Below, piece after piece: positions 35,910 through 63,692 of a stretch of DNA of 64,000 nucleotides. Where the stretch lies: positions 99,579 through 163,578 of IMG/VR virus record IMGVR_UViG_3300012931_000015; one strand, written 5' to 3'. Positions within the stretch are counted from its first letter, which is position 1; each line of letters starts with the position of its first letter. The position numbers and the translations under genes are program-made. The notes beneath the pieces are model-generated. The model searched no databases and was not told the DNA's origin. It worked only from the letters and a program-made list of their open reading frames with translations. Source of the stretch: a virus.

Positions 35910-36377
35910 TTATTTAATAGTATTTCGTGCTTTTTTTTCTATATAATCTATTTCAGGTAATTTGTTAGAAAAATATATAATTTCCGCATAAAAATTATTA
36001 TATAATTGATCTGTTATTTGTTTTTTCCTATCTGCTAAAAGCAATGGTGATAAAGCATTTTGTTTTGCTAATTTAGGATAATTATGTAATAACATACTTA
36101 GATACATTTTTATATTTGGAGAGGGAAATTCATAACCTTTAAATGTGTACTCTTCTGTTTTACCAATAGTATTACCAGATTCTGGATCATATTCTTGTAT
36201 TTCAACTACTTGATATTTTTCCCATCCACCCCTTCCATCATCTACACGATATACTTTTTTATTAACAATAAAACCTCTCATATCAAATGATTCAATAAAA
36301 ATTGTATCGCCTTTTTTCAATATAGTGTTTCCAATATGCTTCTCTTCTTTCATTATAACTTTTTTTAATTTTTTCAT
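35910..36377 (-). CDS. Module-bearing protein
   Basis: A 155-residue protein. Residues 1-30 (MKKLKKVIMKEEKHIGNTIL, then KKGDTIFIES) are a clear copy of the shared module. The middle is beta-rich, with YRVDDGRGGWEKYQVVEIQE, and the C-terminus is helical (LLLADRKKQITDQLYNNFYA). No other domain is recognised. Located between neck and hub-like genes, among virion genes. Confidence 0.6.
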   Translation of the reverse strand: MKKLKKVIMKEEKHIGNTILKKGDTIFIESFDMRGFIVNKKVYRVDDGRGGWEKYQVVEIQEYDPESGNTIGKTEEYTFKGYEFPSPNIKMYLSMLLHNYPKLAKQNALSPLLLADRKKQITDQLYNNFYAEIIYFSNKLPEIDYIEKKARNTIK

Positions 36378-41845: not shown

Positions 41846-42472
41846 TCAATCAGTAATTTTTTTAATAATGCTAGATTTATTCAACATCGGGAGCAAAACG
41901 TGTGAGCAAATATATAGGGCATGTTTGTCCAGATATGGATAATGCTCAACATTCGTACTTTTTTTAGGTAAACGATTTGTATAATTAATTCCATATAATA
42001 AACCAAAAGCATGAGCAACCGCCATAACATTAAAAAAGTAGTCCATTTGACAGCCATTTCTTATATTACTTTCCGCTATCTGTATTCGTTCTTTTTGAGA
42101 GTATTTTTTACCTGTCTTAGCAATTATAGGACGCTTTAGACTTCCGGTACGCCAGCGAAATGCAGATCGTGTACCCATAGAAATATCTCTAAAAAGAAAA
42201 GTAACCGGATAATTATGTTTTTTTATATTGTCTATTTTTTGATATGATGTAGGTTCAGATATTACATTAAAAATTATCTTGGCTTCTCTGCCGTCTTGAA
42301 TCCAAGTTTTTTTAGAATAATCATAGTGATAGTTTTGACGCTTAGTTATGTAAATTGATTTGCAGTCGAGCTCGCTTCTCCAAAATTTATCATCGAATTT
42401 TTTATAGTACAAAAAACTCAATTGTAATATTTCTTGAAGATTAATATCCCCTTTTTTTAAATTTAATGCCAT
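41846..42472 (-). CDS. Hypothetical protein
   Basis: A 208-residue protein (MALNLKKGDINLQEILQLSF). Later segments include WIQDGREAKIIFNVISEPTS and SIRNGCQMDYFFNV-like sequence (SNIRNGCQMDYFFNVMAVAH). The opening NLKKGDI is reminiscent of the shared module but lacks its other positions, so I do not include it. A TACTAATA copy lies directly upstream. Function unknown. Confidence 0.6.
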   Translation of the reverse strand: MALNLKKGDINLQEILQLSFLYYKKFDDKFWRSELDCKSIYITKRQNYHYDYSKKTWIQDGREAKIIFNVISEPTSYQKIDNIKKHNYPVTFLFRDISMGTRSAFRWRTGSLKRPIIAKTGKKYSQKERIQIAESNIRNGCQMDYFFNVMAVAHAFGLLYGINYTNRLPKKSTNVEHYPYLDKHALYICSHVLLPMLNKSSIIKKITD

Positions 42473-42486: not shown

Positions 42487-44217
42487 TTAAGAATTATATT
42501 TAAAGACCATATTACCACAGTCCCAGATACGGTCATACTTATTTATTTGCATATTCTGCCATTCAGTTAAATTCTCATTATAGTTATCAAATAATTTTTT
42601 CAACTTGTGTTTCTGATATTTAATTCTTGACTCTAAATATAAATGATTCTTTGTATAAAAATAATTAGGTTTTGTGTTTTCTATGAACTGAAAATTATTA
42701 TTCAAATACAAATTACCTACACTATATCTTTTGTCTGCATAAGTTATGATAGATTTTGAATAATTATTAACAAAATACTTTAAACATTTGCTAAAACCTC
42801 CTATTACTGAATAAAAGGATTTAGAAGCATATCTTATTAATTCATATTCGTAATTTAAATTATATCTTGATTTTCCAAAAATTAAACCTAATACAATTTC
42901 ATTATTATGTTCTAAACAGATATAAACATTATTTTTATTTTTCACAAATCCTTGTAAATGATTATTTTCAAAAAAATCTTTTAAATTATTATCTGAATTT
43001 TTATACAATTTTAAAATACAATTTCTTGCATATATTTTATTTGTTAATAGCCCTAATTTACTTAGAACTATAGACTTTATTATGTTAGGCTTTTCAATCC
43101 ACTCATTCTCAAATACATGAATAAGCTGTATATTATTACTTTCAAAAAATTTACTCTTATTTAAATGATAATATTTATTTTTCTCACCCGACAATTCAGA
43201 GTGCCAATAGATGCCATTATATTCTATTCCAATGTTCTTGCTAGGAACAAATATATCTAACTCATATTCCTGCTTATCTGTTTTAAACCTTTTATGCTTT
43301 TCTATATTTATCACAGAAGATAACCAATCAGCTAATTCATTTTCACCCTTAGAAGAATTATAATCTTTAGGAAAGCAATCTAAACATCTTGGTAAAGTTC
43401 CATTATCTATTGTATCATAAAATTCTTTATTACACTTTAAACATAACCATTTGTAGTTTTTATCTTTAACTCCTTCATATTCATTTATATCAAATAAAGG
43501 TTTAACAAGCTCAAAATATTTTATTTTTTCTATAAAAAATTTTTTATATTGTGTTTTAGTAGCTTTTTCCAGTATTTCTTTATTTTGGGTAACATTTTTT
43601 ACACCATAGCGTTCAATGCAAGTTTGTTCTCTTTTTTCCTTATTACGATAATTTTCATCATTATATCGCTCTAATTTAGTTTTTTTGCATTTTTTTTTAA
43701 TTTTTTCTGATTGAAAAGAACATTCAACATTAAAATTTTTCTTCGTGGTTTCTTTAATTTTATTCTTTACTTCTTCTACTTGCCCTACATTTTCTACACC
43801 ATATTTTTTTAAAGTAGTTTCTTTACACTTTTCTCTATTATTGTTAAATTTTCCGTATCGTTCTATATGTGAATTTTTAATTTTTTGTTTAATTTCGTTA
43901 CTTTTTGAAGGATGATCCACATTATAAATAGTTAATAATTTTTCTTTAATCTTATCTTTTATTTCTTCAGACTGAAAAGGATTTTCTACTCCATACTTTT
44001 TTAAATTTGTATTCTTTGTTCGTTCTAAAACACAACTTCTATTATTGCATTCCATAGCATAGTAAAGTCTGCTGAATTTTCTTGTAATTACCGTATTGCA
44101 AGTATTATGTTTATAAGTTAAAACTTTATTTTCTTTATCTAATTTTATACAAGTATAATCTAAATTACTTTTAAAAAAACTATCAATTCTTTCACTTATA
44201 GAAATTCTTTTATTCAC
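42487..44217 (-). CDS. Hef-like homing nuclease with 23-residue repeats
   Basis: A 576-residue protein. After an N-terminal Cys segment (TYKHNTCNTVITRKFSRL ... ECNNRSC) comes an array of about six or seven repeats of 23 residues (LKKYGVENPFQSEEIKDKIK ...), then CLKCNKEF/CLDCFP, then the PD-(D/E)XK/Vsr-like nuclease core YELDIFVPSKNIGIEYNGIYW. The final third (DKRYSVGNLYLNNNFQFIEN) is the GNAT-like end of phage Hef-type endonucleases. Homing role by family knowledge. Confidence 0.75.
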   Translation of the reverse strand: MNKRISISERIDSFFKSNLDYTCIKLDKENKVLTYKHNTCNTVITRKFSRLYYAMECNNRSCVLERTKNTNLKKYGVENPFQSEEIKDKIKEKLLTIYNVDHPSKSNEIKQKIKNSHIERYGKFNNNREKCKETTLKKYGVENVGQVEEVKNKIKETTKKNFNVECSFQSEKIKKKCKKTKLERYNDENYRNKEKREQTCIERYGVKNVTQNKEILEKATKTQYKKFFIEKIKYFELVKPLFDINEYEGVKDKNYKWLCLKCNKEFYDTIDNGTLPRCLDCFPKDYNSSKGENELADWLSSVINIEKHKRFKTDKQEYELDIFVPSKNIGIEYNGIYWHSELSGEKNKYYHLNKSKFFESNNIQLIHVFENEWIEKPNIIKSIVLSKLGLLTNKIYARNCILKLYKNSDNNLKDFFENNHLQGFVKNKNNVYICLEHNNEIVLGLIFGKSRYNLNYEYELIRYASKSFYSVIGGFSKCLKYFVNNYSKSIITYADKRYSVGNLYLNNNFQFIENTKPNYFYTKNHLYLESRIKYQKHKLKKLFDNYNENLTEWQNMQINKYDRIWDCGNMVFKYNS

Positions 44218-44250: not shown

Positions 44251-45102
44251 TTATAATTCAAAAATTATTAAATATTCTCCTTTAAAAATATTTTTGCTAC
44301 TTCTTTGAAAATGATTTAAATTATTTATACTTCCTAATTTTATTTCTTTAGTATATTTAAGATTTTCTTCTTTACATATTTTAACCATATCATATTTATA
44401 TTTATTATTTATTACAAAACTAAAATATTTATTACAATTAATTAAAGAATTTTTAACAGAAGCTCTCCACCATTTATTCAACCAATCAACATAATTGTTA
44501 TATAATATACTTGAAGTATTTTTGTTATTATATTCTTCAGTATTATAATAAGGAGGGCAGGTAAAAACTGCATCATATTTTTGATTTGGGATAAATTGAC
44601 TTGAATCTTTATTATAAAATATTTTATTCTTATTTGGAAAATCTAAATCATTAAATATAAAAATACAATTTTTATAAGTTCTTTCATCAACATCATTATA
44701 AATATAATTTATATTCATAGCCCCTAACAGTCTATGCCCCCAACCCCCACAAAAATCATAAATTGATTTTATATTATACTCTTCAATAAAAGCCTTAATC
44801 CAATAAGAACTAAAATGTGAAAAACTATTATGAATACCACTTATTTTAAACCCTCTTAAAATTTCTTTATCAGTTAAATCATATTCTGCTTTATTTAAAT
44901 ATTTTATTCTGTTTTCAATAATTTTTCGTCTAATAATAGGATCATTTTTATATAAATAATTTTCATATTCAAAAAAATGAGGCTGATAAGTTAAAATTAT
45001 TTTATTATTACAAGGATTTTTATTATAACTTCCTTTATTATTCTTCAATTTATTAAATTCTTTATTTATTTCTTTTTGAGAATATTTATATTCCAAACCC
45101 AT
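44251..45102 (-). CDS. DNA methyltransferase (class I, PPY motif)
   Basis: A 283-residue protein. DFCGGWGHRLLGAM (residues 116-129) is the S-adenosylmethionine-binding motif I, and FTCPPYYNTEEY (180-191) is the catalytic PPY loop of amino-methyltransferases (adenine-N6 or cytosine-N4). Its ATG overlaps the stop of the preceding nuclease gene by one codon, so the pair is translated together. It would protect DNA from a cognate nuclease or mark phage DNA. Confidence 0.8.
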   Translation of the reverse strand: MGLEYKYSQKEINKEFNKLKNNKGSYNKNPCNNKIILTYQPHFFEYENYLYKNDPIIRRKIIENRIKYLNKAEYDLTDKEILRGFKISGIHNSFSHFSSYWIKAFIEEYNIKSIYDFCGGWGHRLLGAMNINYIYNDVDERTYKNCIFIFNDLDFPNKNKIFYNKDSSQFIPNQKYDAVFTCPPYYNTEEYNNKNTSSILYNNYVDWLNKWWRASVKNSLINCNKYFSFVINNKYKYDMVKICKEENLKYTKEIKLGSINNLNHFQRSSKNIFKGEYLIIFEL

Positions 45103-46496
45103 TATAAAACTCTTTTAATTTGAATTATTATATCATTTTCATCCTTAAAACTAAATATTTCTAAATATCTTAAATTATTCTCAATAGCTATTTTTCTTTT
45201 TAAAGGATCAAGAATAGTCCATACATATATAGCTTTTTCATAAAAAATTTTTCTTTTTCCTTTAAAATTTATTTCTTCAAGTTTTTGTGTATATTTTCTC
45301 AATATGTTCTGATGTTCTTCATTTTTAGAATTAAAAGCTTCTTTTCCGTGTGTCCAATTTCCTTGATACTCAATGAATAAATCTTGTGCAGGCAAATAAA
45401 AATCACAAGCGTAAGGATACCTTTTATCATCTCTATACTGTCTTTTTACTTCTTTAAAATTTCTAACTAAAATATCATATATATAGTCTTCTGATGAAGA
45501 AATATTAAAACTGTTGTTTTTCTTTTTTGTATTATATATTTTTTCTTGTACTTCTTTTGTTTGAGTAGGAAATTTAGTTCCATATCTTTCTAAATTTGTA
45601 TTATCTGCTTTTTCTTTAAATTCTTTTATTTGTAAAGCATATTCTTTACCATATTTACCCTTTATTATATTTCTCATTCTTTCTGAATTTTCAAATAAAC
45701 TTTTTACCCCATATTTATTTTCACAAGTATTTTCTTTTTTTATTTTTATATTTTCATTTTGGGATACATTTTCAACTCCATATTTTTCTCTTACAGTATC
45801 TTTTACTTTTTCTTTTATTTCTTCTGCTTGAAAAACATTTTCACATCCGTATTTTTCTAAGTTAGTTTGTTCTCTTTTTGCAATTGTTTCGGGTAAAGAA
45901 AGAGGATATTTTACTCCATACTTTTCTAAATTATTATTTTCTCTAATTTTTTTTATCTCTTTATTTTGCATAGAGTGTTCAACCCCGTACCTTTCTAAAT
46001 TTGTTTTAACAATTTTTTCCCTTATTTCTTCAGATTTTGAGGCATTATCTACTCCATATCTTTCAACACAAGTCTTTTTTCTCTTTTCAATTACATCTTT
46101 ATTTTGTAAACTATATTCTGTTCCATATTTTTCTAAGCAAGTTTCTTTCATTTTTTCTTTAATCTTTTCTGATTTTGCCGGATTATCAACACCAAATTTT
46201 TCTAAATTAACTTTTTTTATTTTGTCTTTAATTTCTTCTGATTGAAAAGCATTTACTACCCCGAATTTTTCTAAAACAACACTATTTCTTTTGCTCACAA
46301 TACAATCTTTATTATTACATCCTATTCTAACTTTAAAAAACAATAATTTCTTAATTAAGATTGTTCCACAATTTAAATGCTTATATGTAATAGTTTGTTT
46401 TTCCCAATCAATATTAATAAATTCATATTCTTTATTATTTACTTCATTTTGTTTAATGAAATGTTTTTTATAATCATCTTCTGTCCATTTTTTCAT
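45102..46496 (-). CDS. Nuclease with 11 tandem 23-residue repeats
   Basis: A 464-residue protein. It has an N-terminal Cys segment (TYKHLNCGTILIKK ... IGCNNKDC), residues 75-325 with 11 repeats on the pattern L-E-[KR]-[YF]-G-V-x-N-x-x-Q-S-x-E-I-K-E-K-I-K-x-T-[NC], then a C-terminal nuclease-like domain (YACDFYLPAQDLFIEYQGNW, C-D-x(8)-D-x-F-I-E-Y-Q-G). The E-Y-Q-G with upstream D is the PD-(D/E)XK-type or Vsr-like core. It is followed by the methyltransferase with an overlapping start. Confidence 0.75.
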   Translation of the reverse strand: MKKWTEDDYKKHFIKQNEVNNKEYEFINIDWEKQTITYKHLNCGTILIKKLLFFKVRIGCNNKDCIVSKRNSVVLEKFGVVNAFQSEEIKDKIKKVNLEKFGVDNPAKSEKIKEKMKETCLEKYGTEYSLQNKDVIEKRKKTCVERYGVDNASKSEEIREKIVKTNLERYGVEHSMQNKEIKKIRENNNLEKYGVKYPLSLPETIAKREQTNLEKYGCENVFQAEEIKEKVKDTVREKYGVENVSQNENIKIKKENTCENKYGVKSLFENSERMRNIIKGKYGKEYALQIKEFKEKADNTNLERYGTKFPTQTKEVQEKIYNTKKKNNSFNISSSEDYIYDILVRNFKEVKRQYRDDKRYPYACDFYLPAQDLFIEYQGNWTHGKEAFNSKNEEHQNILRKYTQKLEEINFKGKRKIFYEKAIYVWTILDPLKRKIAIENNLRYLEIFSFKDENDIIIQIKRVL

Positions 46497-46647: not shown

Positions 46648-48105
46648 TTAATAATTTAAATTAGAAAGTGTCAACATTCTTATATATTTCTTCTCTACTA
46701 CTTTAGCATCGCCGAAATGTGCTAACGCACCTTCAGTTTTAAAGGTCTGAGGATAAGTAAGAGTACCTGCATCAAACATCTGAATCAAAGTTCCAAAAGT
46801 TATTGCTGAATCAGCTTCATTAGCTGGATTCTTATAGATACACATTATCTCATTATTTGCAACTAAGTTAGCATCAGCAGGACATTTATAAACCTCTGCT
46901 CTACCTATCTTACCTACTAAATGCAATCCAATCTCTGGCTGTGAATAATCATCAGTCCAAGTTTTATTGAATGACAAGTAAGTACAAGCACCCGGCCCCG
47001 CAACGATCTTGCTAATAGCACCACGTTTAAGGTCATTAAATATTGCGTTACCAGCTTTGTTAATATAACCAGTAACCATCTGTGCGTGTTCCCACTCAGA
47101 ATCAGCACCAGCGTTAGCAAAGTTAGTATCCATCATGATAGTAGTATTTGATTTTCCACACCATCTACCAAGCTGTACCGCTCTGTAATCTCTTGCTTTC
47201 ATCAACTCTTCCGCTACGGATTTGGTGAGAATTTCTTTCGCATCGCCAAGACCAGTAGTACCTATAATCAATTCAACAAGTTTTGTATAGCTGAATCCTA
47301 ACGGGCTAATTTTTGCTTCAAGTTTATGCTTAACAATATTAATTTTAGCCTGACCGAACTCATCATAGTTACCTGTATTTTCAGAATCCCAGTTATATTC
47401 AACCTGAATTGAAACGCCACTTGCAGGAGCAGTATCAAAAGTAACACTTACCGAACCACTTGAATAAACGATTGTAGAACTTGCAAGTAAAGTTGATTCA
47501 CTAAAAGCACCATCGCCATCATCAAGAGCTTCATAAGCACCATTAACAACTAAAATAACTGATTTTGTTCTTAACGGAGTAGTAGTCATAGTTGCAGTAA
47601 AAGTAACGGTTGAACCATCACCTGTACCTAAAGTCTGTAACTGTTTTTCCGAAGCGAAATATCTATCAGTTGATTCATAGTATTTTGTACCGTCTACGCT
47701 CGGTGATCTTGTAGGTGTACCGTCATAAACAGCATTTACAAAATAGAAAGTATCGTCAGTTGACAACATAGGAATTTCTCTAAAGATATTTCCTAAGTTA
47801 CTATTCGGAGCACTAAGTCTTATTACTTCCAAAACTTTTTCAGGAGTCAAGCTAAAACTAGATGAAATGCTTGTTTCTTTCATCAGGGCTTTCATGTGAT
47901 TTAACTGATTCTCCATATAAACAGCAGTTTTTCTTTTTTCAGAATCAGAAAGCTTATTCCAGTTCTCAAATAATCTAGGGTATTTCTTTTTCTCAACTGT
48001 TTCCCATTTATAGACTATTTCATCATATCTCTGCTCTCTTGATTTCTCGGCTAACATTGCCTGTTCCTGCAATTTGTCAGCACTTTCTCTCATTACTGTA
48101 CGCAT
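46648..48105 (-). CDS. Major capsid protein, gp23-like
   Basis: A 485-residue protein. Helical N-terminal propeptide to about residue 77, ending ALMKE|TSISSSF, which fits [LI]-x-E processing as in T4 gp23. The rest reads as HK97-type shell sequence: SLTPEKVLEVIRLSAPNSNL, IKSxMRDY-like MKARDYRAVQLGRW, and GYINKAGNAIFNDLKRGAIS. Near residues 160-245 a GDGSTVTF Ig-like domain is inserted, shared with the sheath. It forms the head shell; two TTGACA promoters lie upstream. Confidence 0.85.
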   Translation of the reverse strand: MRTVMRESADKLQEQAMLAEKSREQRYDEIVYKWETVEKKKYPRLFENWNKLSDSEKRKTAVYMENQLNHMKALMKETSISSSFSLTPEKVLEVIRLSAPNSNLGNIFREIPMLSTDDTFYFVNAVYDGTPTRSPSVDGTKYYESTDRYFASEKQLQTLGTGDGSTVTFTATMTTTPLRTKSVILVVNGAYEALDDGDGAFSESTLLASSTIVYSSGSVSVTFDTAPASGVSIQVEYNWDSENTGNYDEFGQAKINIVKHKLEAKISPLGFSYTKLVELIIGTTGLGDAKEILTKSVAEELMKARDYRAVQLGRWCGKSNTTIMMDTNFANAGADSEWEHAQMVTGYINKAGNAIFNDLKRGAISKIVAGPGACTYLSFNKTWTDDYSQPEIGLHLVGKIGRAEVYKCPADANLVANNEIMCIYKNPANEADSAITFGTLIQMFDAGTLTYPQTFKTEGALAHFGDAKVVEKKYIRMLTLSNLNY

Positions 48106-48295: not shown

Positions 48296-49471
48296 TTATT
48301 TAAATCCCATCTTTCCAATCCAGTTAGTGGATTTAGTAGATGCTTCGCTTATTTTTGAAAAATTTCTCTCTTTAAACTTAGAAACTTTTTTAGTGGACTC
48401 TTTTATCTCTTCTTCATCCTCTACTTCAATTTCATCTTCTTCAGTCATAGCTTCATCTTCATCATCAACTATTTCGTCTTCTTCGGTTATCCCATCTTTA
48501 TTTTCTTCGTCATCAATAACATCTTCTTCTTCAGAAATTAGTTTTACTTCTTTTAAAGACTTAATACCAAACTTTTTACACAAAGCACTTTCAGAGATTA
48601 TAGAATCGTCTTTATCTTCTTTTTCAGAGTCTTCCGCATCACCTTCTTCTTCTTTAACTTCTACTTCGTTTTTGTCTTTTGTTTCATCTTCTTTATCATT
48701 ATTTACAAGTTCCTGTTCTAATTTCAGGAGTTTTCGTCTTAATGTTTTAATTGACTCTTTTATATTTTCTTCATCTTCAGGTTTTTTCTCATCAGAAACT
48801 TCGTCAGTCTCTTCTTTTTTTACTTCGACTTCAGCGTCTTTTTTCTCATCTTCTTTGTTGTCTTCAGGTTTAACTTCCTCTTCCTCTTTAACTTTCGATT
48901 TAGCTTTTTTTGAAGCTTCCTGTTTTTTCTTAGCGATAGATGCCTTAACAGCTTTAATTGCTTCTTTAACAACAATCTCGTCTTCGTCAACAACATCTTC
49001 AACCGGAACAACCTCTGCACCTATTACGTCAGTCTCTTCGGTCATAGTTCCATTATCAGCCTCACCCTTAGTAACATCATTAGATTCTTCATCAGAACCT
49101 TCAATTTTTGTATTCTCATCTTCTTCTTTAATACTTTTTTTGATCTCTTTAAATACACTAAGAGATTTGTTATATTTTTTTCTCAAATCTTCAAGCATAT
49201 CCTCTGTCATTTCATCTTTCTTTTTAAAATTTTCTATAACAGTAGCCTGCTCCATGATTGTTCTATTTAAATTTTCAACTAAAATATCTATGGATTTATC
49301 AACCTGCTCAACTAAAGATTTAGCTTCAGTAGCTTCTAAAACTTCTTTTATATCTTCTTTAATCTGCAAAAGTTCATCTAAACCTTCTTTTTTATTCGGG
49401 TTTTTTACGGCTTCTTTTATAGCTTTTCTCTTACTTTCTTTATAATTTGCTAATTCTAACTTTTCAGCCAT
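48296..49471 (-). CDS. Nested scaffold product from an internal start
   Basis: The ATG at 49471 (MAEKLELANYKESKRKAIKE) is preceded by AAGGAG (49486-49481) nine bases upstream, and by ATACTAATA 30 bases upstream. Both are inside the fused gene's coding sequence. It would give a 391-residue acidic scaffold, comparable to the nested scaffold Nu3 within the lambda protease gene C. The strength of the site makes a separate product likely. Confidence 0.7.
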   Translation of the reverse strand: MAEKLELANYKESKRKAIKEAVKNPNKKEGLDELLQIKEDIKEVLEATEAKSLVEQVDKSIDILVENLNRTIMEQATVIENFKKKDEMTEDMLEDLRKKYNKSLSVFKEIKKSIKEEDENTKIEGSDEESNDVTKGEADNGTMTEETDVIGAEVVPVEDVVDEDEIVVKEAIKAVKASIAKKKQEASKKAKSKVKEEEEVKPEDNKEDEKKDAEVEVKKEETDEVSDEKKPEDEENIKESIKTLRRKLLKLEQELVNNDKEDETKDKNEVEVKEEEGDAEDSEKEDKDDSIISESALCKKFGIKSLKEVKLISEEEDVIDDEENKDGITEEDEIVDDEDEAMTEEDEIEVEDEEEIKESTKKVSKFKERNFSKISEASTKSTNWIGKMGFK

Positions 49472-50221
49472 TTTGTTCGTCTCCTTAAAATTTACATTAT
49501 TATTAGTATTCACCTTTTCTGAAAGTGATATATCTTTTGACATTTTTATTTTATCGTTTTTATCTGTGGTTGTTGAAGGGGGAAGGGTTTTTGAGTTTTC
49601 TTTTACAATATTATCAGATGTAGCTCTAACTCCTTGTGAACTGTTATGTACCCAGTCAGCGAGATGGTCGAGGTCGAAAGAATCCCAACATATAACATCT
49701 ATACCTTCTTCTAAATCTTTGTAATTACTTAGTTCTTCTTCCCTGTATTCAAATTCTCCAAATCCGACTGTCGAAAATTCTATGAAATTTGCCCCTGCTT
49801 TTAAAGCATCTAAAAGTAATTTTCCATTTTCCCCAATTAAGTATAAATCTGCTTTACCTGTCTCTTCTCCTGCTTTAAAATTGTGCCAGATACCACAGGT
49901 GAGAAGCACGTTTTGAGAATCTTCTGCATGATTAGCAAAACAAGATGATCCTTCTGAAACACCTTCCTTTTGTATTCTTTCCCATAATTTTTTCGGGTAT
50001 AAACGCTTGTTGGCGTTAGGAACGTAACGGGTCACGTCAACGCCCTCTAAAACAGCTATTGCATCATACTTTTTACCTTCAGACTCTATTAATTTATTAT
50101 TTTTTTCAAGAATTCTTATATTATCAATATTACTAATTCTTAAAGGAAAACTTTCTATTAAAAGTTTTTTACCCTTTTGTTTAGCTATTTCTTCAAAATT
50201 TTTATACATCGTTTTCTCCAA
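48296..50221 (-). CDS. Prohead protease-scaffold fusion (gp21/gp22-like)
   Basis: A 641-residue protein. The protease half has His98 (FANHAEDSQN) and Ser150 (FIEFSTVGFGEF), with RYVPNANKRLYPKKLWERIQ, the pattern of T4 gp21-type serine proteases. From about residue 250 it is highly acidic and helical (EEDENTKIEGSDEESND ... EEDEIVDDEDE), like scaffold gp22. It would be cleaved itself (ANYKE|S, AIKE|A). Most myoviruses encode these as two genes; here one ORF with a nested start. Confidence 0.85.
   Translation of the reverse strand: MEKTMYKNFEEIAKQKGKKLLIESFPLRISNIDNIRILEKNNKLIESEGKKYDAIAVLEGVDVTRYVPNANKRLYPKKLWERIQKEGVSEGSSCFANHAEDSQNVLLTCGIWHNFKAGEETGKADLYLIGENGKLLLDALKAGANFIEFSTVGFGEFEYREEELSNYKDLEEGIDVICWDSFDLDHLADWVHNSSQGVRATSDNIVKENSKTLPPSTTTDKNDKIKMSKDISLSEKVNTNNNVNFKETNKMAEKLELANYKESKRKAIKEAVKNPNKKEGLDELLQIKEDIKEVLEATEAKSLVEQVDKSIDILVENLNRTIMEQATVIENFKKKDEMTEDMLEDLRKKYNKSLSVFKEIKKSIKEEDENTKIEGSDEESNDVTKGEADNGTMTEETDVIGAEVVPVEDVVDEDEIVVKEAIKAVKASIAKKKQEASKKAKSKVKEEEEVKPEDNKEDEKKDAEVEVKKEETDEVSDEKKPEDEENIKESIKTLRRKLLKLEQELVNNDKEDETKDKNEVEVKEEEGDAEDSEKEDKDDSIISESALCKKFGIKSLKEVKLISEEEDVIDDEENKDGITEEDEIVDDEDEAMTEEDEIEVEDEEEIKESTKKVSKFKERNFSKISEASTKSTNWIGKMGFK
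49501..49509 (-). promoter_or_regulatory. TACTAATA motif inside the protease gene
   Basis: Minus strand ATACTAATA, encoding Asn-Thr-Asn in the fused protein, 30 bases before the nested scaffold start. Confidence 0.45.
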
Positions 50222-50235
50222 GTAATATTCTTTAA

Positions 50236-50244
50236 TATTAGTAT
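50236..50244 (-). promoter_or_regulatory. TACTAATA motif
   Basis: Minus strand GATACTAATA, 15 bases before the ATG of the protease-scaffold gene at 50221. Confidence 0.35.
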
Positions 50245-50259
50245 CAAAAATTATTTTAT

Positions 50260-51282
50260 TTATGTAAAATCAGCATAGTAAAACACAGGACTTTTTTCAT
50301 TTAAAGAATAAATTTTCCAACCTTTATAATTGTTCGTTTTACTTTTTTCATATAAAATATGTTGAAAACCACTCACTGATAATTTTTGTTCTTCACAAAA
50401 ATTTTTTAATCCATAATTAACTTCATACCTTTCATTATTAGGCGAAAAAATAATATAAGTTTCAGTAACTTTACTATTTTTACCTTTTTTTATATTTGAT
50501 AAATGCTCTCTTTGTTCTTTTGTCCAAACTCTTCTTCTATTTGCTTCTCTAATTTTTTCTTTAGCTTCTTCTGAATGTGTTTTACCGTACATACCATTAT
50601 TTTTTCCAAGTAAATTAGGACATTTTTTATTCTTTTTTGAAACTTTTTCTGTTTTTTTAGAATAAAATTTTACTTTTCCTTTTACACCCTCAAGCCAACC
50701 ACTATCTAAATAAGCTTGTAATTCTTCAGCACTAACTAACTTTCTTTCACTACCATTAAAAATCCATTTCAAACCTCTTCTACTATCGCCTGTTTTTGGA
50801 TTTTTTACTCCCTTTTTTGCTTCACTTAACCTTTTTCTGCCCTCTTCTGTAATAAAACTTTTTCCTTTATGTGATTCACTTAATTTAAGTCTAGTTTCTT
50901 TAGAAACTTTTCTATTAGAATTTGCTAAACCAATTTTTTTAAATATAAGCTCTCTATCAGGATGATGGGTAAAGTTATCTTGACCTTCCCCACCTGTTCC
51001 TATATTGTAGCCAACAGGTCTAAAACTATTTAATTCTTTTATCCAGTATCTCTCTTTTTCAATTAATTCTTCTTTAGTCACACAGTTTTCAATTATCTCT
51101 TTTTTAAAGTTTTCTTTTCCATGCTTTTTTATTGCATATTTAATTAATTTTCCAGAACCCCAATAATTCTCAAATTTTACACTTTTTGCATTTCTTTGTA
51201 AATTAAATTTTCCAACATAAATTTTATTATTGATTAGATTAGTTATTTTATAAATAACTCCAAATATTCCTTCATTATTCAA
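50260..51282 (-). CDS. GIY-YIG homing endonuclease
   Basis: A 340-residue protein. The N-terminus has GVIYKITNLINNKIYVGKFN, the GIY-YIG core with an F-G-S-G-like W-G-S-G turn and EIIENCVTKEELIEKERYWI. Residues 100-270 carry NUMOD-type helices (KVSKETRLKLSESHKGKSFI, MYGKTHSEEAKEKIREANRR), and the C-terminus a DNA-binding helix pair. It sits between the protease-scaffold and the module-protein cluster, as a mobile intruder. Confidence 0.85.
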   Translation of the reverse strand: MNNEGIFGVIYKITNLINNKIYVGKFNLQRNAKSVKFENYWGSGKLIKYAIKKHGKENFKKEIIENCVTKEELIEKERYWIKELNSFRPVGYNIGTGGEGQDNFTHHPDRELIFKKIGLANSNRKVSKETRLKLSESHKGKSFITEEGRKRLSEAKKGVKNPKTGDSRRGLKWIFNGSERKLVSAEELQAYLDSGWLEGVKGKVKFYSKKTEKVSKKNKKCPNLLGKNNGMYGKTHSEEAKEKIREANRRRVWTKEQREHLSNIKKGKNSKVTETYIIFSPNNERYEVNYGLKNFCEEQKLSVSGFQHILYEKSKTNNYKGWKIYSLNEKSPVFYYADFT

Positions 51283-51364: not shown

Positions 51365-51661
51365 TCAAATTCTATTCCTTATCACTGTCGCAAAAGGAAC
51401 AATAAATAAATTTGTTGATAAGCCTTTACTATCTGTAGCTACACACTGATATTCTACAATTTTATTATGTTTTAAACTTCTTACTTCATAAAAATCAACA
51501 ACTTCATTAATTATACTGCTGCCTTGTTTAAATTTATCCCCTATTTTAACACCTTTTATTTCTTCAAAACTTTCCTTCATAACTACATAAATTACATCAC
51601 CTTTTTCAAGCTCAACATTTCCTATTTTTCTGTTTTCTTTAATTATAACTTTTTTTAACAT
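51365..51661 (-). CDS. Module protein, 98 aa, MKES site
   Basis: A 98-residue protein. Residues 1-30 are the shared module (MLKKVIIKENRKIGNVELEK, then GDVIYVVMKE|SFEE), followed directly by the cleavage-like MKE|S. The remaining 68 residues are beta-rich, with EVRSLKHNKIVEYQCVATDS. This is the shortest complete member: module plus a single small cargo domain. Confidence 0.65.
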   Translation of the reverse strand: MLKKVIIKENRKIGNVELEKGDVIYVVMKESFEEIKGVKIGDKFKQGSSIINEVVDFYEVRSLKHNKIVEYQCVATDSKGLSTNLFIVPFATVIRNRI

Positions 51662-51677
51662 TATTTTTTCCTTTATT

Positions 51678-54386
51678 TTATTTATATTGTTTTATCACAC
51701 TTCTAACATTGTCAATATAATCTTCCACTTCGGTATCCCCAAATTCTTTCATATCAAACGCAATTCGGTAAATTTCTTCCATCACAGCTAAATTGAGTAA
51801 AGCATTTTTGTTATTCTTTTTTATTGCTATGTCTATTTGCTGATCTACTAAATCTCTATTTCGTTTTAATTTTGCTTTATCAAGTTTTAGTGTTTCATTG
51901 ATTAGATTTACTATTTCTTTATCAGATAAATTTCCATCTTTTGCTACACCGGACTCATTCAATTCATTTTGTTTAGCTTCACTTCTGTAAGTTTTTAAAC
52001 CGCTTTTCATATTTTTGCTACCATATTTTTGTATATAGTCTACAATTTCTTTTTTTATTAAAGCAAGTTCTTTATCATCCATTTTATCAAAATTTCTTCT
52101 TATTATCCTATTTGTTTCTGGTAATGTTCCATTTGTCTGGATACTCATATTACTTGAGTTTGGATATTTGAATCTTACTACTTGATTTCCATTAGCATCA
52201 AGCCCTTCACCTGTTACGGTTATATTTGTACCTTTTAATTCATATTCTTTTTTTGCTTCATTTAATGATTTTCTATCTTTAAATATTTTACTCATAACAT
52301 TATAAGTAGCTTGATCCTTTTCATCTATTTTTTTATTTAACTGTTTATAATTTTTTAATTTAGTTTCTAATGTTAAAAGGTAATGCTCTAAAGTTTTAAT
52401 TGGTGTACTTCTATAATAATCACCCATTTCTTTTTCAACTTCTTTTTCTAAATCAGTTATTTTAGATTCTTTAAAGTTTACATACTTATTTTCTTTTAAC
52501 CAGTCTTTTACTTCAGTATCATACACATTTAATTGTTCTTCAAAAATATCAAACTTTGCAACTAAATTATGTGTTTTTTCTGAATATATTTCTTGCTTGC
52601 TTCCGTTTTTTATTCCCCAAAACTTATAAGGAAAAGCTAATAATTTATCATAATCATTTATTGTGAATCTTATATTTTTAGGTGAAGCTTCTCTTATTTC
52701 TTTTGACTCTTTTACTTTAACAAATTCCCCTGTTCTGGTTGCACGATAAGGTTTAATTTTTTCTTTCTCGTACTTTTCTTTTTCATCTTTTGTAAAAGTC
52801 GTCCAAGTATGCACATTTGAAGAAAAACTACCATTCCTCTTCAGTCCGGCATTACCTGATAAATAATAAAATTTTTCATCTTCTTCTTTCATTTCTTTTG
52901 ATTCTTTATAATATTTTAAAATATTAAACCTTTGTGCGTCATAAAGTTGATCCCACTCTGAATCATGTTCCCCATCTGAATAATCTTTAAATAAATTTTT
53001 ATCATATTTATCAGGAAAATATTTACTAAATTTTTTTCTTTCAGGATGATCTTCAAAAGCAGATAACATATACATCATTACATGCTCTATAGAACTAACC
53101 ACATATTTGTCAGGTTTATTTTCTAATTCAGGGTAATCTTTTAATAATTTTCTATATATTTCTTTTCCATACTGTGTAAATAGTTTTTTAGAAGCAGAAG
53201 ATATGTCTTCTTTTAATTTTGCCTCTCTAAAATTATCCTTTATGCCATTTACTACCGTAACTAAGCTTTCAAATTCCCAATCACCGTTAGGTAGTTTTTC
53301 TCCGAACTGATATATATCTTCTACATCTACTTTATATTTTTTTGCTATATCAACTATCTGATTTTTAGTTAAAGAAAAATAATCTTTTTTACTACCTTTC
53401 TTCATTACTTTTTTAATGTCTAAGGTAATATCACTTTCTTTACTTTCATTTGTCTTTATTCTATCCTGCATACTTTTTAATGCTTCAGTTTCACTTTCAA
53501 GGTCTTTTTTTAATCTTTCAATTAAATCTTTATCATCATCTTCCTGTGCCTGTAAGAGATCACCTTTTAATTTATTTATTGTTTGTTTCTGATCTAAAAT
53601 ATCAGCTTTATCTTGGGCTTCATCTTCTCTCAACTTATTTTCATTTAAATCATTAAAAGGTGGGTTTTCTTTTTCTATACTTTTAATTACAGATTTAAGG
53701 TCTTTATCTTGCAGTTTTGTATCTTTTTCAATAAACTGTAAATCAGAAATCATTAAACTTCTTCTTTCACCGGACTTTACTGGAATATTAAAATAATCTA
53801 AAATTTTTCTTAGTTGACCATCAGAAAACTTATTCCAATTTATAGATTCTTTCAACTTATTTTTTTCATTTTCTTTTATTATGCTTTCACTTTTCTTACT
53901 TAAAATTGTTTTTACTTCATCATCTGTCAAATAGGCATTAAGTTTTACATTCCATTTTTTATCAAAGGATTGTAGCCATCGCTCATAATCCCCGTCTTTA
54001 TTTTTTTGAATAATTTCTTTTACATCTTTCCCATTATATTTTATTTTTCTAGTAATAATACCATTTTTTTCTAAATCCTTAAAAGCGTCTTCTTTCATTT
54101 CTTTTGATTCTTTATAATAAGGTTTAACTCTTACTGCTAAATCTCTCAAGGCATCCTTTGTTATACCATCATTATTCATTACGTTATCATACCAATCTTT
54201 ATATATCGTATAAACACCGGAATAAGGTCTGCCATAATGATATTCTCTGGTTGCCCAATTATAAATATCCTGTAATTCTTTTACATTAAAATCAGCATTA
54301 TATTCTTCAACAAATATTTCTTGACCTTTTTTTAATTCTATACCTTCAATTACACTGTCTTTCTCTACAATTATTTTTCTTAACAT
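51678..54386 (-). CDS. Large module-bearing internal protein with repeated cleavage-like sites
   Basis: A 902-residue protein. Residues 1-30 are the module (MLRKIIVEKDSVIEGIELKK, then GQEIFVEEYN). The rest has several folded-looking segments separated by KES/KEA/KED peptides: YYKESKEMKEDA, NKLKESINW, FREAKLKEDI, YYKESKEMKEED, VKESKEIREAS and NFKESKITDLE. Two of these linkers are encoded by nearly identical 31-base DNA. It resembles a polyprotein of internal head proteins. No known enzymatic domain seen. Confidence 0.65.
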   Translation of the reverse strand: MLRKIIVEKDSVIEGIELKKGQEIFVEEYNADFNVKELQDIYNWATREYHYGRPYSGVYTIYKDWYDNVMNNDGITKDALRDLAVRVKPYYKESKEMKEDAFKDLEKNGIITRKIKYNGKDVKEIIQKNKDGDYERWLQSFDKKWNVKLNAYLTDDEVKTILSKKSESIIKENEKNKLKESINWNKFSDGQLRKILDYFNIPVKSGERRSLMISDLQFIEKDTKLQDKDLKSVIKSIEKENPPFNDLNENKLREDEAQDKADILDQKQTINKLKGDLLQAQEDDDKDLIERLKKDLESETEALKSMQDRIKTNESKESDITLDIKKVMKKGSKKDYFSLTKNQIVDIAKKYKVDVEDIYQFGEKLPNGDWEFESLVTVVNGIKDNFREAKLKEDISSASKKLFTQYGKEIYRKLLKDYPELENKPDKYVVSSIEHVMMYMLSAFEDHPERKKFSKYFPDKYDKNLFKDYSDGEHDSEWDQLYDAQRFNILKYYKESKEMKEEDEKFYYLSGNAGLKRNGSFSSNVHTWTTFTKDEKEKYEKEKIKPYRATRTGEFVKVKESKEIREASPKNIRFTINDYDKLLAFPYKFWGIKNGSKQEIYSEKTHNLVAKFDIFEEQLNVYDTEVKDWLKENKYVNFKESKITDLEKEVEKEMGDYYRSTPIKTLEHYLLTLETKLKNYKQLNKKIDEKDQATYNVMSKIFKDRKSLNEAKKEYELKGTNITVTGEGLDANGNQVVRFKYPNSSNMSIQTNGTLPETNRIIRRNFDKMDDKELALIKKEIVDYIQKYGSKNMKSGLKTYRSEAKQNELNESGVAKDGNLSDKEIVNLINETLKLDKAKLKRNRDLVDQQIDIAIKKNNKNALLNLAVMEEIYRIAFDMKEFGDTEVEDYIDNVRSVIKQYK

Positions 54387-54414: not shown

Positions 54415-54786
54415 TTATAAGTAGTTATCTAATAAACTATATAATTTATCTACATCATCATTTTTGAATTTATTCATAACAATATTATTAAATATAGTGT
54501 TATCAAGTAAATTTCTAACAAATTTAGACTTTATTCTATTATTATCTAATAATATCTCATTTTTATATTTATCTTTAAATTTTTTACCTTTCAATATATT
54601 TTCTAAAAAACTGTATAAATCTTTAAAAGACTTTATGTTTTCAAGTTCTAAATCAAATATTTCATCAGAGGTAGTAGCAATATAAGGCATTTCTTTTAAT
54701 TGCTTTTTAGGTTTTATATAAATTGTTTGACCTTTTTTCAGATTAAATTCTTTTATACTTTTAGATAAAATTAACTTTTGTAACAT
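54415..54786 (-). CDS. Module protein, 123 aa
   Basis: Residues 1-34 are the module (MLQKLILSKSIKEFNLKKGQ, then TIYIKPKKQ) followed by LKE|MPYIATTSDEIF. The cargo is a helical domain of about 85 residues (FKDLYSFLENILKGKKFKDK, then RFVRNLLDNTIF-type sequence). Next gene follows after five bases. Confidence 0.65.
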   Translation of the reverse strand: MLQKLILSKSIKEFNLKKGQTIYIKPKKQLKEMPYIATTSDEIFDLELENIKSFKDLYSFLENILKGKKFKDKYKNEILLDNNRIKSKFVRNLLDNTIFNNIVMNKFKNDDVDKLYSLLDNYL

Positions 54787-54791
54787 ACTTA

Positions 54792-55334
54792 TTATTTTCC
54801 TTCAGCGTCTTTCTTTACAGCATCTTCTAAATCTTTTAAGAAGGGTAAATAATATTTTGAATCTTTAGGAGATACTTTTTCACCTTTTTTACCTATTTCG
54901 GAAAGATGATCTAATCCCACACGAGGAGCTAAATACTTTGCATAAGGATTTTTAGAGTCAAAATGTTCTAGCTCAACTTCTCGTGAAGCATCAAGTTGTT
55001 TTTTATCAACATCACTTTCAGTTACACCTTTTTCAAAAGCTTTTCCGCCTCTTAAAAAACATTGAACTATTTTATATATTTCAAGCTCTAATTGATGAGG
55101 ATTCATATTTAATTTTTCAGCAAATGAATGTATATCTTTCTCATCATCAGTTATTTCATGTTCTTTTAAATAATCTAGTATTTTAACTCTTATTTCGTCA
55201 GTTATTTTTATATTAGGTAATTCAACTTCTTTTTCAGCTTCTTTTATTTTATTTTTACTTTCAACATAAACAATCTGACCTTTTTCTAAATTCCAATCCT
55301 TTATATTTTCAGTCAATATTATTTTTTTTAACAT
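54792..55334 (-). CDS. Module protein, 180 aa
   Basis: Residues 1-35 are the module (MLKKIILTENIKDWNLEKGQ, then IVYVESKNK) followed by IKE|AEKEVELP. The cargo starts with a helical domain (IRVKILDYLKEHEITDDEKD) and includes MNPHQLELEIYKIVQCFLRG, an H-x-x-E-x-E-type helical bundle I recall from phage proteins of unknown role. The TACTAATA motif lies 46 bases upstream. Confidence 0.65.
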   Translation of the reverse strand: MLKKIILTENIKDWNLEKGQIVYVESKNKIKEAEKEVELPNIKITDEIRVKILDYLKEHEITDDEKDIHSFAEKLNMNPHQLELEIYKIVQCFLRGGKAFEKGVTESDVDKKQLDASREVELEHFDSKNPYAKYLAPRVGLDHLSEIGKKGEKVSPKDSKYYLPFLKDLEDAVKKDAEGK

Positions 55335-55487: not shown

Positions 55488-56153
55488 CTATATAGTAATA
55501 TCTATAACACGCTTATCATTATTTTCTAGTTTTTCCCAATAAAAACCTTTATAAAAACAAAAATTATTTACTGCGGTTTTAAATTTTTTACTTAACGTAT
55601 ATCTATCAATCCCTGTTTTATGAACATCTCTAAGACTAAGAAATGTCTCTATTTTATTGTATTCTTTATCATATTTAATAATTTTATAACTTTTTAAAAT
55701 TTTATGTTTTAAAGAAGTAGCATATTCTCTGAATCTTTTACTTAGACCAGCTCTACTAGAATCACATAAGCCCGTATCCCAAGCATGTTGCATATTATAA
55801 CTTTGTGTACACCATTCCAAATTACATACTTTATTATTACTCTTGTTACCGTCTTTATGATTTACTTGATATAAATTCTCTTTATTATTAATAAAATGTA
55901 AAGCTACTAATCTATGCACATAATAATTTTTTAATTTATTATTTTTACATAAAATTAATCGTAAATACCCATTTTCTTTTATTTCACCTATTCGTAGTTT
56001 TTCTGGCACAAAACGCTGTTGTTTTCCAAAACATACTTCTCTACTTATTGTTTTAACTTTTCCAAAATTAGATATTTTATAATACCCCGTATAATTTTCA
56101 CCGCCCCACGGGGACAAATCAATATCTTTCCATAATTCTAATGTTTCTTCCAT
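55488..56153 (-). CDS. NUMOD4/HNH homing endonuclease
   Basis: A 221-residue protein. WKDIDLSPWGGENYTGYYKI plus SNFGKVKTISREV is the NUMOD4 domain, followed by the HNH core YVHRLVALHFINNKENLYQV, NHKDGNKSNNKVCNLEWCTQ and SYNMQHAW. The C-terminus has a NUMOD1-like helix (FLSLRDVHKTGIDRYTLSKK). A free-standing homing nuclease of the type seen in T4-like phages. Confidence 0.9.
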   Translation of the reverse strand: MEETLELWKDIDLSPWGGENYTGYYKISNFGKVKTISREVCFGKQQRFVPEKLRIGEIKENGYLRLILCKNNKLKNYYVHRLVALHFINNKENLYQVNHKDGNKSNNKVCNLEWCTQSYNMQHAWDTGLCDSSRAGLSKRFREYATSLKHKILKSYKIIKYDKEYNKIETFLSLRDVHKTGIDRYTLSKKFKTAVNNFCFYKGFYWEKLENNDKRVIDITI

Positions 56154-60227: not shown

Positions 60228-62351
60228 TTATTTTATTCCATATAATTTTTTTAACAAATATTGGTCATTACTACCTCCAGCAAAATTATTTAATTTCAAA
60301 GCTTTATTTTTTAACCCTATTCTTCTATTTTCTTCTTCATATAAAGTTACAGGTTTTACTTCTTTATTGTGCATCATTAAATACACCGCTCTACAAGTTG
60401 CATCACTAACATCTTTTTCATATTTTCCAGCAGTTGATAACTCCCAATTTCCATTATACTTGTGAACAGGCGTTCCTTTGGATTTCAATACTTTTTCATT
60501 ACCTTTTAAATCTGTTCCACGATAAAGACTATCAAGATTATTTTTAAGATAAATATTTTTACCACACTTATACAAACCATTATATAATATTCCAACAAAA
60601 TACTGGTAAGGCTCTACTGATAAGTCAACACTAAATTGAATACAGTTTATTCCTGCTCTTTCTAAGTTCTGTTGTGTTTGCTTACTTTGAAATTGATCGA
60701 ATGCTACAACATTTATACTCAAGTGTCCTAACATCATTAAATCTAAAATAAACATATTAAGAGCGTCAAGATTTATTCCGGTTGCATCAGGAGCGATAGC
60801 TAAACTAAAATCATTCACAGCTAAAATTTCTCCATCGTGCCCGATTTCTGGATGAACAACATCAACACCCATTATACACCCTTGTATCGCCACAGCAGTA
60901 TCTATACCTATGAATCTCGGCTCTCTAGGAGCACGAAGTATTTGAAATTGACCATTACCTCTGTCAAGGAAAAACTTTTTGTATATTTGATTCCAGATTA
61001 GTTTGTCAGGTAGTATTTTAGCACCTGCTATTATTTCACCTTCTATGTTGTCTAGGTTTTCATCCCAGATGTTTTCAATGATCCTATAATCTTGCACCAG
61101 TTTAGATTCGTTGGAACTACTTATTCCCCCAATATCTTTTATACTTTCTATTAAATTTCTATTTAATTCATCATAAGTATCTATTGGAAATTTTACAATT
61201 AAATTATTCGGTATTCCTTCTTTTTGTTTTTTTTCTTTAATCAAAAAAGCAGGATGACTTCCATCCCCAACAACCACTTCAAAAGTTTCAAGTGGTCTAT
61301 TTTCCGTAGACCAAGATTTTTTCCAAGTTTTACTTTCAAAAACATTTAAATTTTCTCCTTCTAGTTTATTAGCATTTGCCCATTTTGGAAATTTCTCAGG
61401 TAATAATTCCCATCTTCTATAATATTTATAAAAACAATCTTTATTATTTCTTAAATCTACTTGAACTAATTTTTCAATCGGGGATTCAGCACAATTACTA
61501 CTAGAATCTATCGCTAAAAAACAAGGAAACCGATTCCTCAAAATTGTTCCAGATATTCTTCCATCCAATTTAGTAAATATATTTAATACATCCTCATCTG
61601 ATATATGAGCCATTTCTTTAAAGTGATTTATTTCAGATATTACACCAGAAACAATGTTTGAACCGATTACGTCTCCCACCCTACTTCCACACAAAATTAA
61701 TAATTTTGGAAATGTCAAACCTCCGGTAGTAACAATACTACACGCTTCAGAAAAATGTATAATACCTTCTGGAGTAACACCTTTTTCTCTTACACCATCT
61801 TCATATTTTACATTTTTAAAAAATTTAGAGGCATATAAAATATTTGTTAATGGGCTTAATATTAACTCTTTTGTTTTATCTTTTTTAAATGATACTAAAT
61901 AAATAGATATATTACTTAAAGGATTTAACCCATAATACAAATGAGGAAATCGCATATAATTAATATATATAATTGAATATACTATATATAATTGGTTCAA
62001 AAGAGATTTCCCACATCTCGTACTTCCGTAATTTACAATATATGTATAAGGATTTTGAGTGTTCATAGACTTAATAAAATTATCTTTAATGAAAGGATAA
62101 AGAGAATCTATCATTTCTATCGGTAAATATCCAAATTTAGGATCAATAAATTCTTCAGGAGTAGGACAAGGATGAATCCACATCATTGAGTGTAATAAAT
62201 CATGATACTTTTCTGAATTTTCAGGCTGAGAAAAAAATTTATCAACTATTTCTTTTTGTTTCAAATTCAGAGAATCATACGTTTTAATTAATTCTTCAAT
62301 TTTGTTAGATGGTATATAATTGTCATTTATATTATTTTTTGTTAATATCAT
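60228..62351 (-). CDS. Terminase large subunit, gp17-like
   Basis: A 707-residue protein. Walker A is GSTRCGKS (109-116), with a LPKLLILCGSRVGDVIGSN-type region (FPKLLILCGSRVGDVIGSNI) and SGVISEINHFKEM. The C-terminal nuclease has RFIGIDTAVAIQGCIMGVDV, VVAFDQFQSKQTQQNLERAG and DVSDATCRAVYLM, giving the RNase H-type acids. It pumps DNA into the prohead and cuts concatemers. T4 gp17 is 610 aa, so this one is a little longer. The next gene upstream is a homing nuclease. Confidence 0.9.
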   Translation of the reverse strand: MILTKNNINDNYIPSNKIEELIKTYDSLNLKQKEIVDKFFSQPENSEKYHDLLHSMMWIHPCPTPEEFIDPKFGYLPIEMIDSLYPFIKDNFIKSMNTQNPYTYIVNYGSTRCGKSLLNQLYIVYSIIYINYMRFPHLYYGLNPLSNISIYLVSFKKDKTKELILSPLTNILYASKFFKNVKYEDGVREKGVTPEGIIHFSEACSIVTTGGLTFPKLLILCGSRVGDVIGSNIVSGVISEINHFKEMAHISDEDVLNIFTKLDGRISGTILRNRFPCFLAIDSSSNCAESPIEKLVQVDLRNNKDCFYKYYRRWELLPEKFPKWANANKLEGENLNVFESKTWKKSWSTENRPLETFEVVVGDGSHPAFLIKEKKQKEGIPNNLIVKFPIDTYDELNRNLIESIKDIGGISSSNESKLVQDYRIIENIWDENLDNIEGEIIAGAKILPDKLIWNQIYKKFFLDRGNGQFQILRAPREPRFIGIDTAVAIQGCIMGVDVVHPEIGHDGEILAVNDFSLAIAPDATGINLDALNMFILDLMMLGHLSINVVAFDQFQSKQTQQNLERAGINCIQFSVDLSVEPYQYFVGILYNGLYKCGKNIYLKNNLDSLYRGTDLKGNEKVLKSKGTPVHKYNGNWELSTAGKYEKDVSDATCRAVYLMMHNKEVKPVTLYEEENRRIGLKNKALKLNNFAGGSNDQYLLKKLYGIK

Positions 62352-63692
62352 TTATTTTAAATATGTAAATTTTTCTAATAATTTTAAAACATCATTTTCA
62401 TCTTTAAAACTAAAAATTTCTAAAAAATTCAAATTATTTTCTTTTGCTATTTTTCTTTTTAAAGGGTCATTTTCTGTCCAAATATAAACAGCACTATTAT
62501 AAAATGTTTTCTTTTCATTTTTGAAATTAATTTCTTGACTTTTATTTTTCCACTTTTCTAATTTTTTTAAATGATTGGGATTATTTTCATTAAAAATTTC
62601 TCTTCCATGAGTCCAGCATCCTTGATACTCAATAAATAAGTCATATTTTGGAAGATAAAAATCACAATTAAATGGGTATCTTTTTTCGTCTTTATACTGA
62701 AAAATCAAACTACTATCAATTTTTAAAAAATATTCTTTTAATTTTTTCTCAGCTCTTGAACTACTAAAACTATTATTTATTTTTTTTGTTTTATATATTC
62801 TTTTTTGGATTATAGAGGATTGAAGGGGGCTATCAACATTATAATTTTTTCTACATGTTTCAATTTTTTTATTCTTTACTTCTTCAATTTGGCTAGGATG
62901 TTCAACACCATAACGATCTAAAAGTGTTTTTTTAAATTTTTCTTTAGCTGCCTCCGCTTGAAAAGCATTCTCAACGCCATATTTTATTAAGTTAGTTTGT
63001 TTAATTTTTTCTTTAACTTTACTATTTTGAAATGCAGCCTCACACCCATATTTTTCTAAGCAAGTTTGTTTAATTTTTTCTTTTACTTCTTTAGCTTGCC
63101 AATGATAATCCACCCCATAATTTTTTCTACAAGTATCTATTTTCTTTTGCTTAATTTCTTCTGCTTGACTAGGATTCTCTACCCCGTAACGCTCTAAAGA
63201 AACTTCTCTACCTCTTTCTCTAATTTCTTTTAATTGAAGTGTAAATTCTACACCATACTTTTCTAAATTATTTTTTTTCTTTTTATCTTTAACAGATTCC
63301 GCTTGATTAGGGCTTTCTACACCGTATTTCTCTAAAGAAGTCTTTTTTGTTTTTTCCTTTATCATATCAGACTGCATAACACTATCAACACCGTATTTTT
63401 CTCTACAAGTTTTAATCCTTTTTTCTTGGAATTCTAATAATTGAAGGGGGTGCTCTACTCCGTACTTTTTTAAATAATTTTGTTTAATTTTTTTATTAAC
63501 ACATTCTTTGTTATTACAGGAAGGACTATATAAAAATTTATATTTGTTTTTTTTAACTATTTTTCCACACACCAAATGCTTATAAGTTATCTCTCTTTTT
63601 TCTTCGTCATAGCTTATAAACTCATAATCATTGCAACAATCCTGACCAATTATATTTTTGAACTCTTTCTCTAAATCTATTTTTTTACTCAC
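62352..63692 (-). CDS. Nuclease with 10 tandem 23-residue repeats
   Basis: A 446-residue protein of the same architecture as 45102-46496: N-terminal Cys segment (TYKHLVCGKIVKKNKYKF ... CNNKEC), ten repeats (LKKYGVEHPLQLLEFQEKRI to RKNYNVDSPLQSSIIQKRIY), then FNCDFYLPKYDLFIEYQGCW, the nuclease core. Its stop abuts the terminase start, so it sits directly upstream of a conserved virion gene, a usual place for homing nucleases. Confidence 0.75.
   Translation of the reverse strand: MSKKIDLEKEFKNIIGQDCCNDYEFISYDEEKREITYKHLVCGKIVKKNKYKFLYSPSCNNKECVNKKIKQNYLKKYGVEHPLQLLEFQEKRIKTCREKYGVDSVMQSDMIKEKTKKTSLEKYGVESPNQAESVKDKKKKNNLEKYGVEFTLQLKEIRERGREVSLERYGVENPSQAEEIKQKKIDTCRKNYGVDYHWQAKEVKEKIKQTCLEKYGCEAAFQNSKVKEKIKQTNLIKYGVENAFQAEAAKEKFKKTLLDRYGVEHPSQIEEVKNKKIETCRKNYNVDSPLQSSIIQKRIYKTKKINNSFSSSRAEKKLKEYFLKIDSSLIFQYKDEKRYPFNCDFYLPKYDLFIEYQGCWTHGREIFNENNPNHLKKLEKWKNKSQEINFKNEKKTFYNSAVYIWTENDPLKRKIAKENNLNFLEIFSFKDENDVLKLLEKFTYLK

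Follow-up and report, generated by a model that had tools for sequence, protein, structure and literature searches.

A gp21-type protease gene fused to an acidic scaffold-like domain carries a putative nested scaffold cistron in a phage with a T4-type head module

Here, we confirm an in-frame ATG with a ribosome site, a putative nested scaffold start, at the domain junction of a fused prohead protease-scaffold gene, located in a 64,000-nucleotide stretch of viral DNA that we refer to as the window. We consider it probable, at roughly three chances in four, that this one gene would yield two nested, 3'-coterminal products, namely a precursor in which protease and scaffold are joined, and free scaffold in excess.

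RESULTS

Genome and head-gene setting

The window comprises positions 99579-163578 of a 163.6-kb viral record (A+T about 74%; coding share of the genome 88.5% by our own gene list). Because a tail sheath, a terminase and a gp23-type capsid protein were found, the record is, judging by its genes, that of a phage with a contractile tail and a T4-type head module. The terminase large subunit is encoded at 60228-62351 (minus strand; PHROG, E 6.7e-6; tblastn to phage terminases) and the gp23-type major capsid protein further downstream in the same cluster, at 46648-48105 (minus strand; match to PF07068 exceeding the cut-off with E 1.5e-5; match to the PHROG major head protein with E 1.6e-8). Homing endonucleases of the GIY-YIG and HNH type are interspersed among the head genes (50260-51282, 55488-56153 and 62352-63692, minus strand), and similar repeats are present at 42487-44217 (DUF7487) and 45102-46496. 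No close relatives were found in viral contigs with the capsid protein, protease, terminase or phosphoesterase as queries, nor in genome contigs with the capsid protein.

Directly before the capsid gene stands the fused gene (48296-50209, minus strand), a single open frame of 637 codons plus stop with a protease-profile match, which reads from a gp21-type (S77) protease through a 51-residue linker into a 391-residue acidic scaffold-like domain. The in-frame fusion of a protease and an acidic scaffold, as given in a preliminary description of this DNA, is thereby confirmed. The full-length gene likelier starts at ATG 50209, which is preceded by GGAG, than at the listed start, an in-frame TTG upstream at 50221 that we set aside because it lacks a ribosome site. 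A copy of the octamer TACTAATA, located by a motif scan and considered below for its genome-wide placement, lies 26 nt 5' of ATG 50209 (50236-50243, minus strand). Antisense to the acidic domain runs a Ser/Phe-rich open frame of 372 codons (48327-49445, plus strand), which seems to be the mirror image of GA-rich codons and not a gene.

Protease domain

The N-terminal domain (amino acids 1-195; 49625-50209, minus strand) is, by profile and alignment, a divergent T4 gp21-type (S77) protease. The head maturation protease family phrog_207 matches the fused gene with E 1e-5, and a custom profile built from 25 related proteases finds it as the sole significant match among 482 genome ORFs (E 5e-7), mainly in the N-terminal third of the protein. 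The candidate catalytic residues His94 and Ser146 occupy invariant columns of the protease alignment A5, and a profile made from this alignment matches the T4 gp21 structure 5JBL with E 1.5e-14. The earlier assignment as a gp21-type protease is borne out by the phrog_207 and custom profiles and the conserved His94/Ser146 pair. The divergence is visible in several places: an Arg two residues past the Ser, nearly invariant in A5, is Val in the window protein, the Pfam S77 match reaches merely E 0.02, which is under the Pfam cut-off, and hhalign of the relatives against the window protein was weak (probability 7%). AlphaFold models built from the protease by itself and together with ten relatives had mean pLDDT values of 35 and 45, too poor for a fold search.

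Linker, acidic domain and cleavage motifs

The linker (amino acids 196-246; 49472-49624, minus strand) is basic and rich in Ser, Thr and Asn. From its composition and the positions of motifs within it, we infer that IVKE|N at amino acids 202-205 is a candidate site for release of the protease. The nested cistron (48296-49471, minus strand), defined by an in-frame ATG with AAGGAG, is predicted to encode 391 amino acids of 44.8 kDa and pI 4.5 with the N terminus MAEKLELANYK. Its predicted product contains seven cleavage-like motifs of the form hydrophobic-Lys/Arg/Ser/Thr-Glu-Ser/Ala, compared with 0.96 in the shuffled protein. Such motifs cluster in two proteins of the genome, the scaffold domain and a 902-residue neighbour (51678-54386, minus strand; 7 motifs versus 0.78 expected), and because of this concentration both are likely protease substrates. 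The neighbour is probably a core or ejected protein that would be processed by the protease.

Is the acidic domain a gp22-like scaffold, as had been described? Its position in the interval between the protease and capsid genes, its acidity and its predicted cleavage motifs are those of a gp22 scaffold, but sequence homology to gp22 was not detectable, since neither phrog_237 nor Pfam gave a match to the domain. The description as gp22-like therefore holds for position, acidity and motifs and not for sequence.

Apart from this, a motif like MLKKIILxxNxxxxNLxKGQxIYVxxK recurs at the N terminus of six proteins (window 51365-51661, 51678-54386, 54415-54786, 54792-55334 and 35913-36377, minus strand; L012 6364-6699, plus strand), and four of them sit consecutively just upstream of the protease gene. 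It is a candidate signal for targeting internal head proteins to the capsid, similar to that of T4 IP/Alt.

A promoter-like octamer

Judging by its placement throughout the genome, TACTAATA behaves as a promoter motif of this phage. The 37 exact copies in the 163.6-kb record are an ordinary number for its composition, and with one mismatch allowed there is no enrichment in the window (193 versus 199 expected). Their location is distinctive: 32 of the 37 copies are intergenic, compared with 12.4% for 279 permuted octamers, while one-base variants of the octamer are intergenic in 0-25%, near background. An SD and a start codon follow next after 10 of the 37 copies (2.5% for permuted octamers). 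Within genes, antisense copies are absent (0 versus 10.0 expected), which fits a promoter that has to be avoided there, and sense copies are not enriched (5 versus 8.6 expected). Some copies end only 3-8 nt before an ATG. For those at 42472 and 58066 of the window and at 11517 and 13795 of L011, the distance is 5-8 nt, and the resulting messages would have little or no leader.

T4 late promoters depend on gp55 and have the consensus TATAAATA, whereas the motif of this phage reads TACTAATA. A search for gp55, the T4 late sigma factor, with phrog_234 and phrog_12791 gave no match, and the control likewise matched nowhere. A scan for sigma-70 promoters was uninformative (23 matches versus 19.9 expected).

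The internal ribosome site and the combined cassette

Along the minus strand, the elements of the junction are, in order, TACTAATA (49508-49501), 14 nt, AAGGAG (49486-49481), 9 nt and ATG (49471-49469). The start codon is in frame with the whole fused gene and lies exactly where the linker gives way to the scaffold domain. The AAGGAG nine bases ahead of it was described correctly; the octamer is also present where it had been reported, but separated by 14 nt instead of the 15 given. Its distance to the internal ATG is 29 nt, close to the 26 nt found at the protease start. The AAGGAG at 49481-49486 forms an anti-SD duplex of -9.9 kcal/mol, the best among the seven in-frame ATGs of the gene, and a site of this strength arises in 0.15% of synonymous recodings with the protein sequence fixed.

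Among 239 genes, in-frame internal AAGGAG/AGGAGG-ATG combinations occur twice, compared with 0.25 expected from synonymous shuffling, and the full cassette of TACTAATA, SD and in-frame ATG occurs once inside a gene (0.032 expected). RNA folding around the internal start showed no notable structure (z -1.1). Between the internal octamer and AAGGAG, an out-of-frame ATG is followed immediately by TAA (49497-49492, minus strand).

Fused and split relatives

Is the fusion special to the phage of the window? Among distant relatives gathered by tblastn and profile searches, those with a complete gene ahead of the capsid gene have a long domain attached to the C-terminal end of the protease. The fusion is also present in GenBank entries for phages of Xanthomonas, Pseudomonas, Rhizobium, Thermus, Acinetobacter, E. 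coli, Tenacibaculum and Bacillus, with phiXF1, QdP_Psa3, RHph_Y65, Ab1-TPeters, IME392, phiLo, PTm1, pT24 and SP-15 as named examples. The fusion is therefore neither new nor unique. Protease and scaffold genes are separate in KVP40, 121Q, Aswh_1, S-PM2, F361 and three Vibrio phages, and the first five of these keep the same protease-scaffold order.

We scored an in-frame ATG within 65 codons past the protease as a junction start if its SD duplex reached -4 kcal/mol or stronger, and took the expectation from the remainder of the same genes. Such a start is present in 14 of 21 fused genes versus 5.7 expected, among them six of the nine named phages; it falls at codon 207 in RHph_Y65, codon 188 in phiXF1 and codon 204 in IME392. 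The pooled rate gives P of about 3e-4, a value that is optimistic because the zone was set after the data had been seen and the genes share ancestry. In the phiXF1-related set, all nine members have the junction SD-ATG just ahead of the scaffold N-terminal motif. The SDs of most relatives comprise merely 4-5 bases, and synonymous recoding is significant singly only for the window gene, L016 and phiXF1. Seven fused genes (L024, L025, L038, PTm1, pT24, SP-15 and LR756500) have no nested start; a fusion of this kind hence does not require a free scaffold.

In the split Vibrio phages 1.031.O and 150E35-1, the protease frame ends and the separate scaffold gene has its annotated start about eight codons further on in the same frame; at this very place, the fused genes of RHph_Y65, Ab1-TPeters and IME392 carry the nested SD-ATG. 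By direct count, the Met precedes a shared Y..LGT motif by 37 residues in Ab1-TPeters and 38 in Vibrio. The window protein is too divergent from the fused GenBank relatives to align well outside motifs. We regard the recurrence of the junction start as support for a nested scaffold, short of proof. Together with the above-chance combination of octamer, SD and start, it argues for the separate scaffold product from the same frame that the preliminary description had claimed.

A search of viral contigs for the cassette of TACTAATA, SD and ATG was not specific. Among the matches listed, two cyanophage-like contigs have TACTAATA, AAGGAG and ATG between separate gp21 and gp22 genes (L126 2974-3029; L139 4788-4841, reverse strand); we do not count them as evidence.

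DISCUSSION

Based on this arrangement, we infer a division of labour between two starts. A transcript from the TACTAATA copy at 50243, translated from ATG 50209, would yield a minor protease-scaffold precursor with an expected mass near 73 kDa, whose scaffold domain would carry the protease into the prohead core, while the internal TACTAATA (49501-49508, minus strand), if it is active as a promoter, and ATG 49471 with its stronger AAGGAG would supply free scaffold in excess, from which the core is built. Cleavage within the linker, for instance at IVKE|N, could then release the protease by its own action, and it would cut the scaffold at hydrophobic-Lys-Glu|Ser/Ala sites, together with the N terminus of the capsid protein and the internal head proteins; maturation of the head would follow. 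A precursor in small amounts next to plentiful free scaffold would fit the stoichiometry of T4, with about 100 gp21 to 576 gp22 (PMC5694885).

Could the scaffold arise by translation alone, in the manner of lambda C/Nu3, from ATG 49471 on the full-length message, with the internal octamer a chance occurrence or relict? The strong SD and the recurrent junction ATG would agree with this, and since four other sense copies of TACTAATA exist within genes, where they show no excess, another one there is possible. The near-identical spacing of the octamer at both starts and the low expectation for the combined cassette speak against this explanation, which we regard as unlikely, though the most credible of the alternatives. 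We give far less weight to the idea that the fusion is a relict, in which the protease stop was lost, the old promoter and ribosome site are unused or unimportant and scaffold comes solely from the long protein. Relatives do alternate between split and fused states at the same junction, and seven fused genes do without the internal start; however, the SD of the window gene exceeds the prediction from synonymous recoding, and junction starts recur in relatives of low identity, where drift would erode them.

Slightly less probable still is that the acidic domain is no scaffold but a cleaved internal protein that enters the head carried by the protease or along with it. The missing sequence match to the gp22 family would agree with this, but the domain is acidic, carries cleavage motifs and immediately precedes the capsid gene, and many phages have this order of domains. 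We thus favour two nested products from one gene, with the internal octamer as a putative promoter.

How does this gene compare with known systems? T4 gp21 and gp22, like their counterparts in KVP40 and 121Q, share the S77 protease, the scaffold, the gp23-type capsid gene and their order, but protease and scaffold are encoded there by distinct genes, divided by a stop codon. The T4-like context that had been described stands for gene order; the fusion does not set the window phage apart. Phages phiXF1, QdP_Psa3, RHph_Y65 and their kin likewise have a fused protease-scaffold ahead of the capsid gene, but there the fused genes are annotated as single proteins. Since the annotations of the genomes covered here record the long protein only, often as 'head maturation protease', a free scaffold would be missed; in the open-access literature, we found no paper that describes a nested start in phages of this group. 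In phage P2, a single gene provides protease as well as scaffold, as gpO (PMC8508860), a likeness by description in another phage group with another protease.

The lambda C gene is a protease gene with an in-frame nested scaffold start, Nu3 (Shaw and Murialdo 1980, as cited in PMC8508860). The nesting of the scaffold start in frame within a protease gene is common to both systems, but the protease of lambda is from a different family. To our knowledge, no separate promoter serves lambda Nu3. The likeness to C/Nu3 proposed earlier is apt for the in-frame nested start with its ribosome site; given the internal promoter-like motif, however, herpesvirus UL26/UL26.5 appears to be the closest analogue. 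In HSV-1, the capsid protease is fused N-terminally to the scaffold; UL26.5, the shorter scaffold cistron, is read in the same frame, shares its 3' end with UL26 and is served by a separate promoter that lies within the protease gene (PMC4498786, PMC2949831). The likeness is one of layout only, comprising the fusion, the nested 3'-coterminal scaffold and a promoter, or in the phage a promoter-like motif, within the protease gene; the herpesvirus protease is of the S21 family, and transcription and translation are eukaryotic. Herpesvirus proteases are reportedly remote homologues of phage prohead proteases (literature cited in PMC7411985).

Tentatively, and with somewhat less than even confidence, we suggest that fused T4-type phages widely keep a nested scaffold cistron, that the window phage equips it with an internal late promoter of its own, and that loss or gain of the intervening stop codon toggles an arrangement with the layout of UL26/UL26.5 and a protease distantly homologous to the herpesvirus one. 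Related genomes in fused and split states allow a direct comparison. Our findings suggest that combining a protease with a nested scaffold to set the stoichiometry of the core, a solution familiar from lambda and herpesviruses, recurs in T4-type phages.
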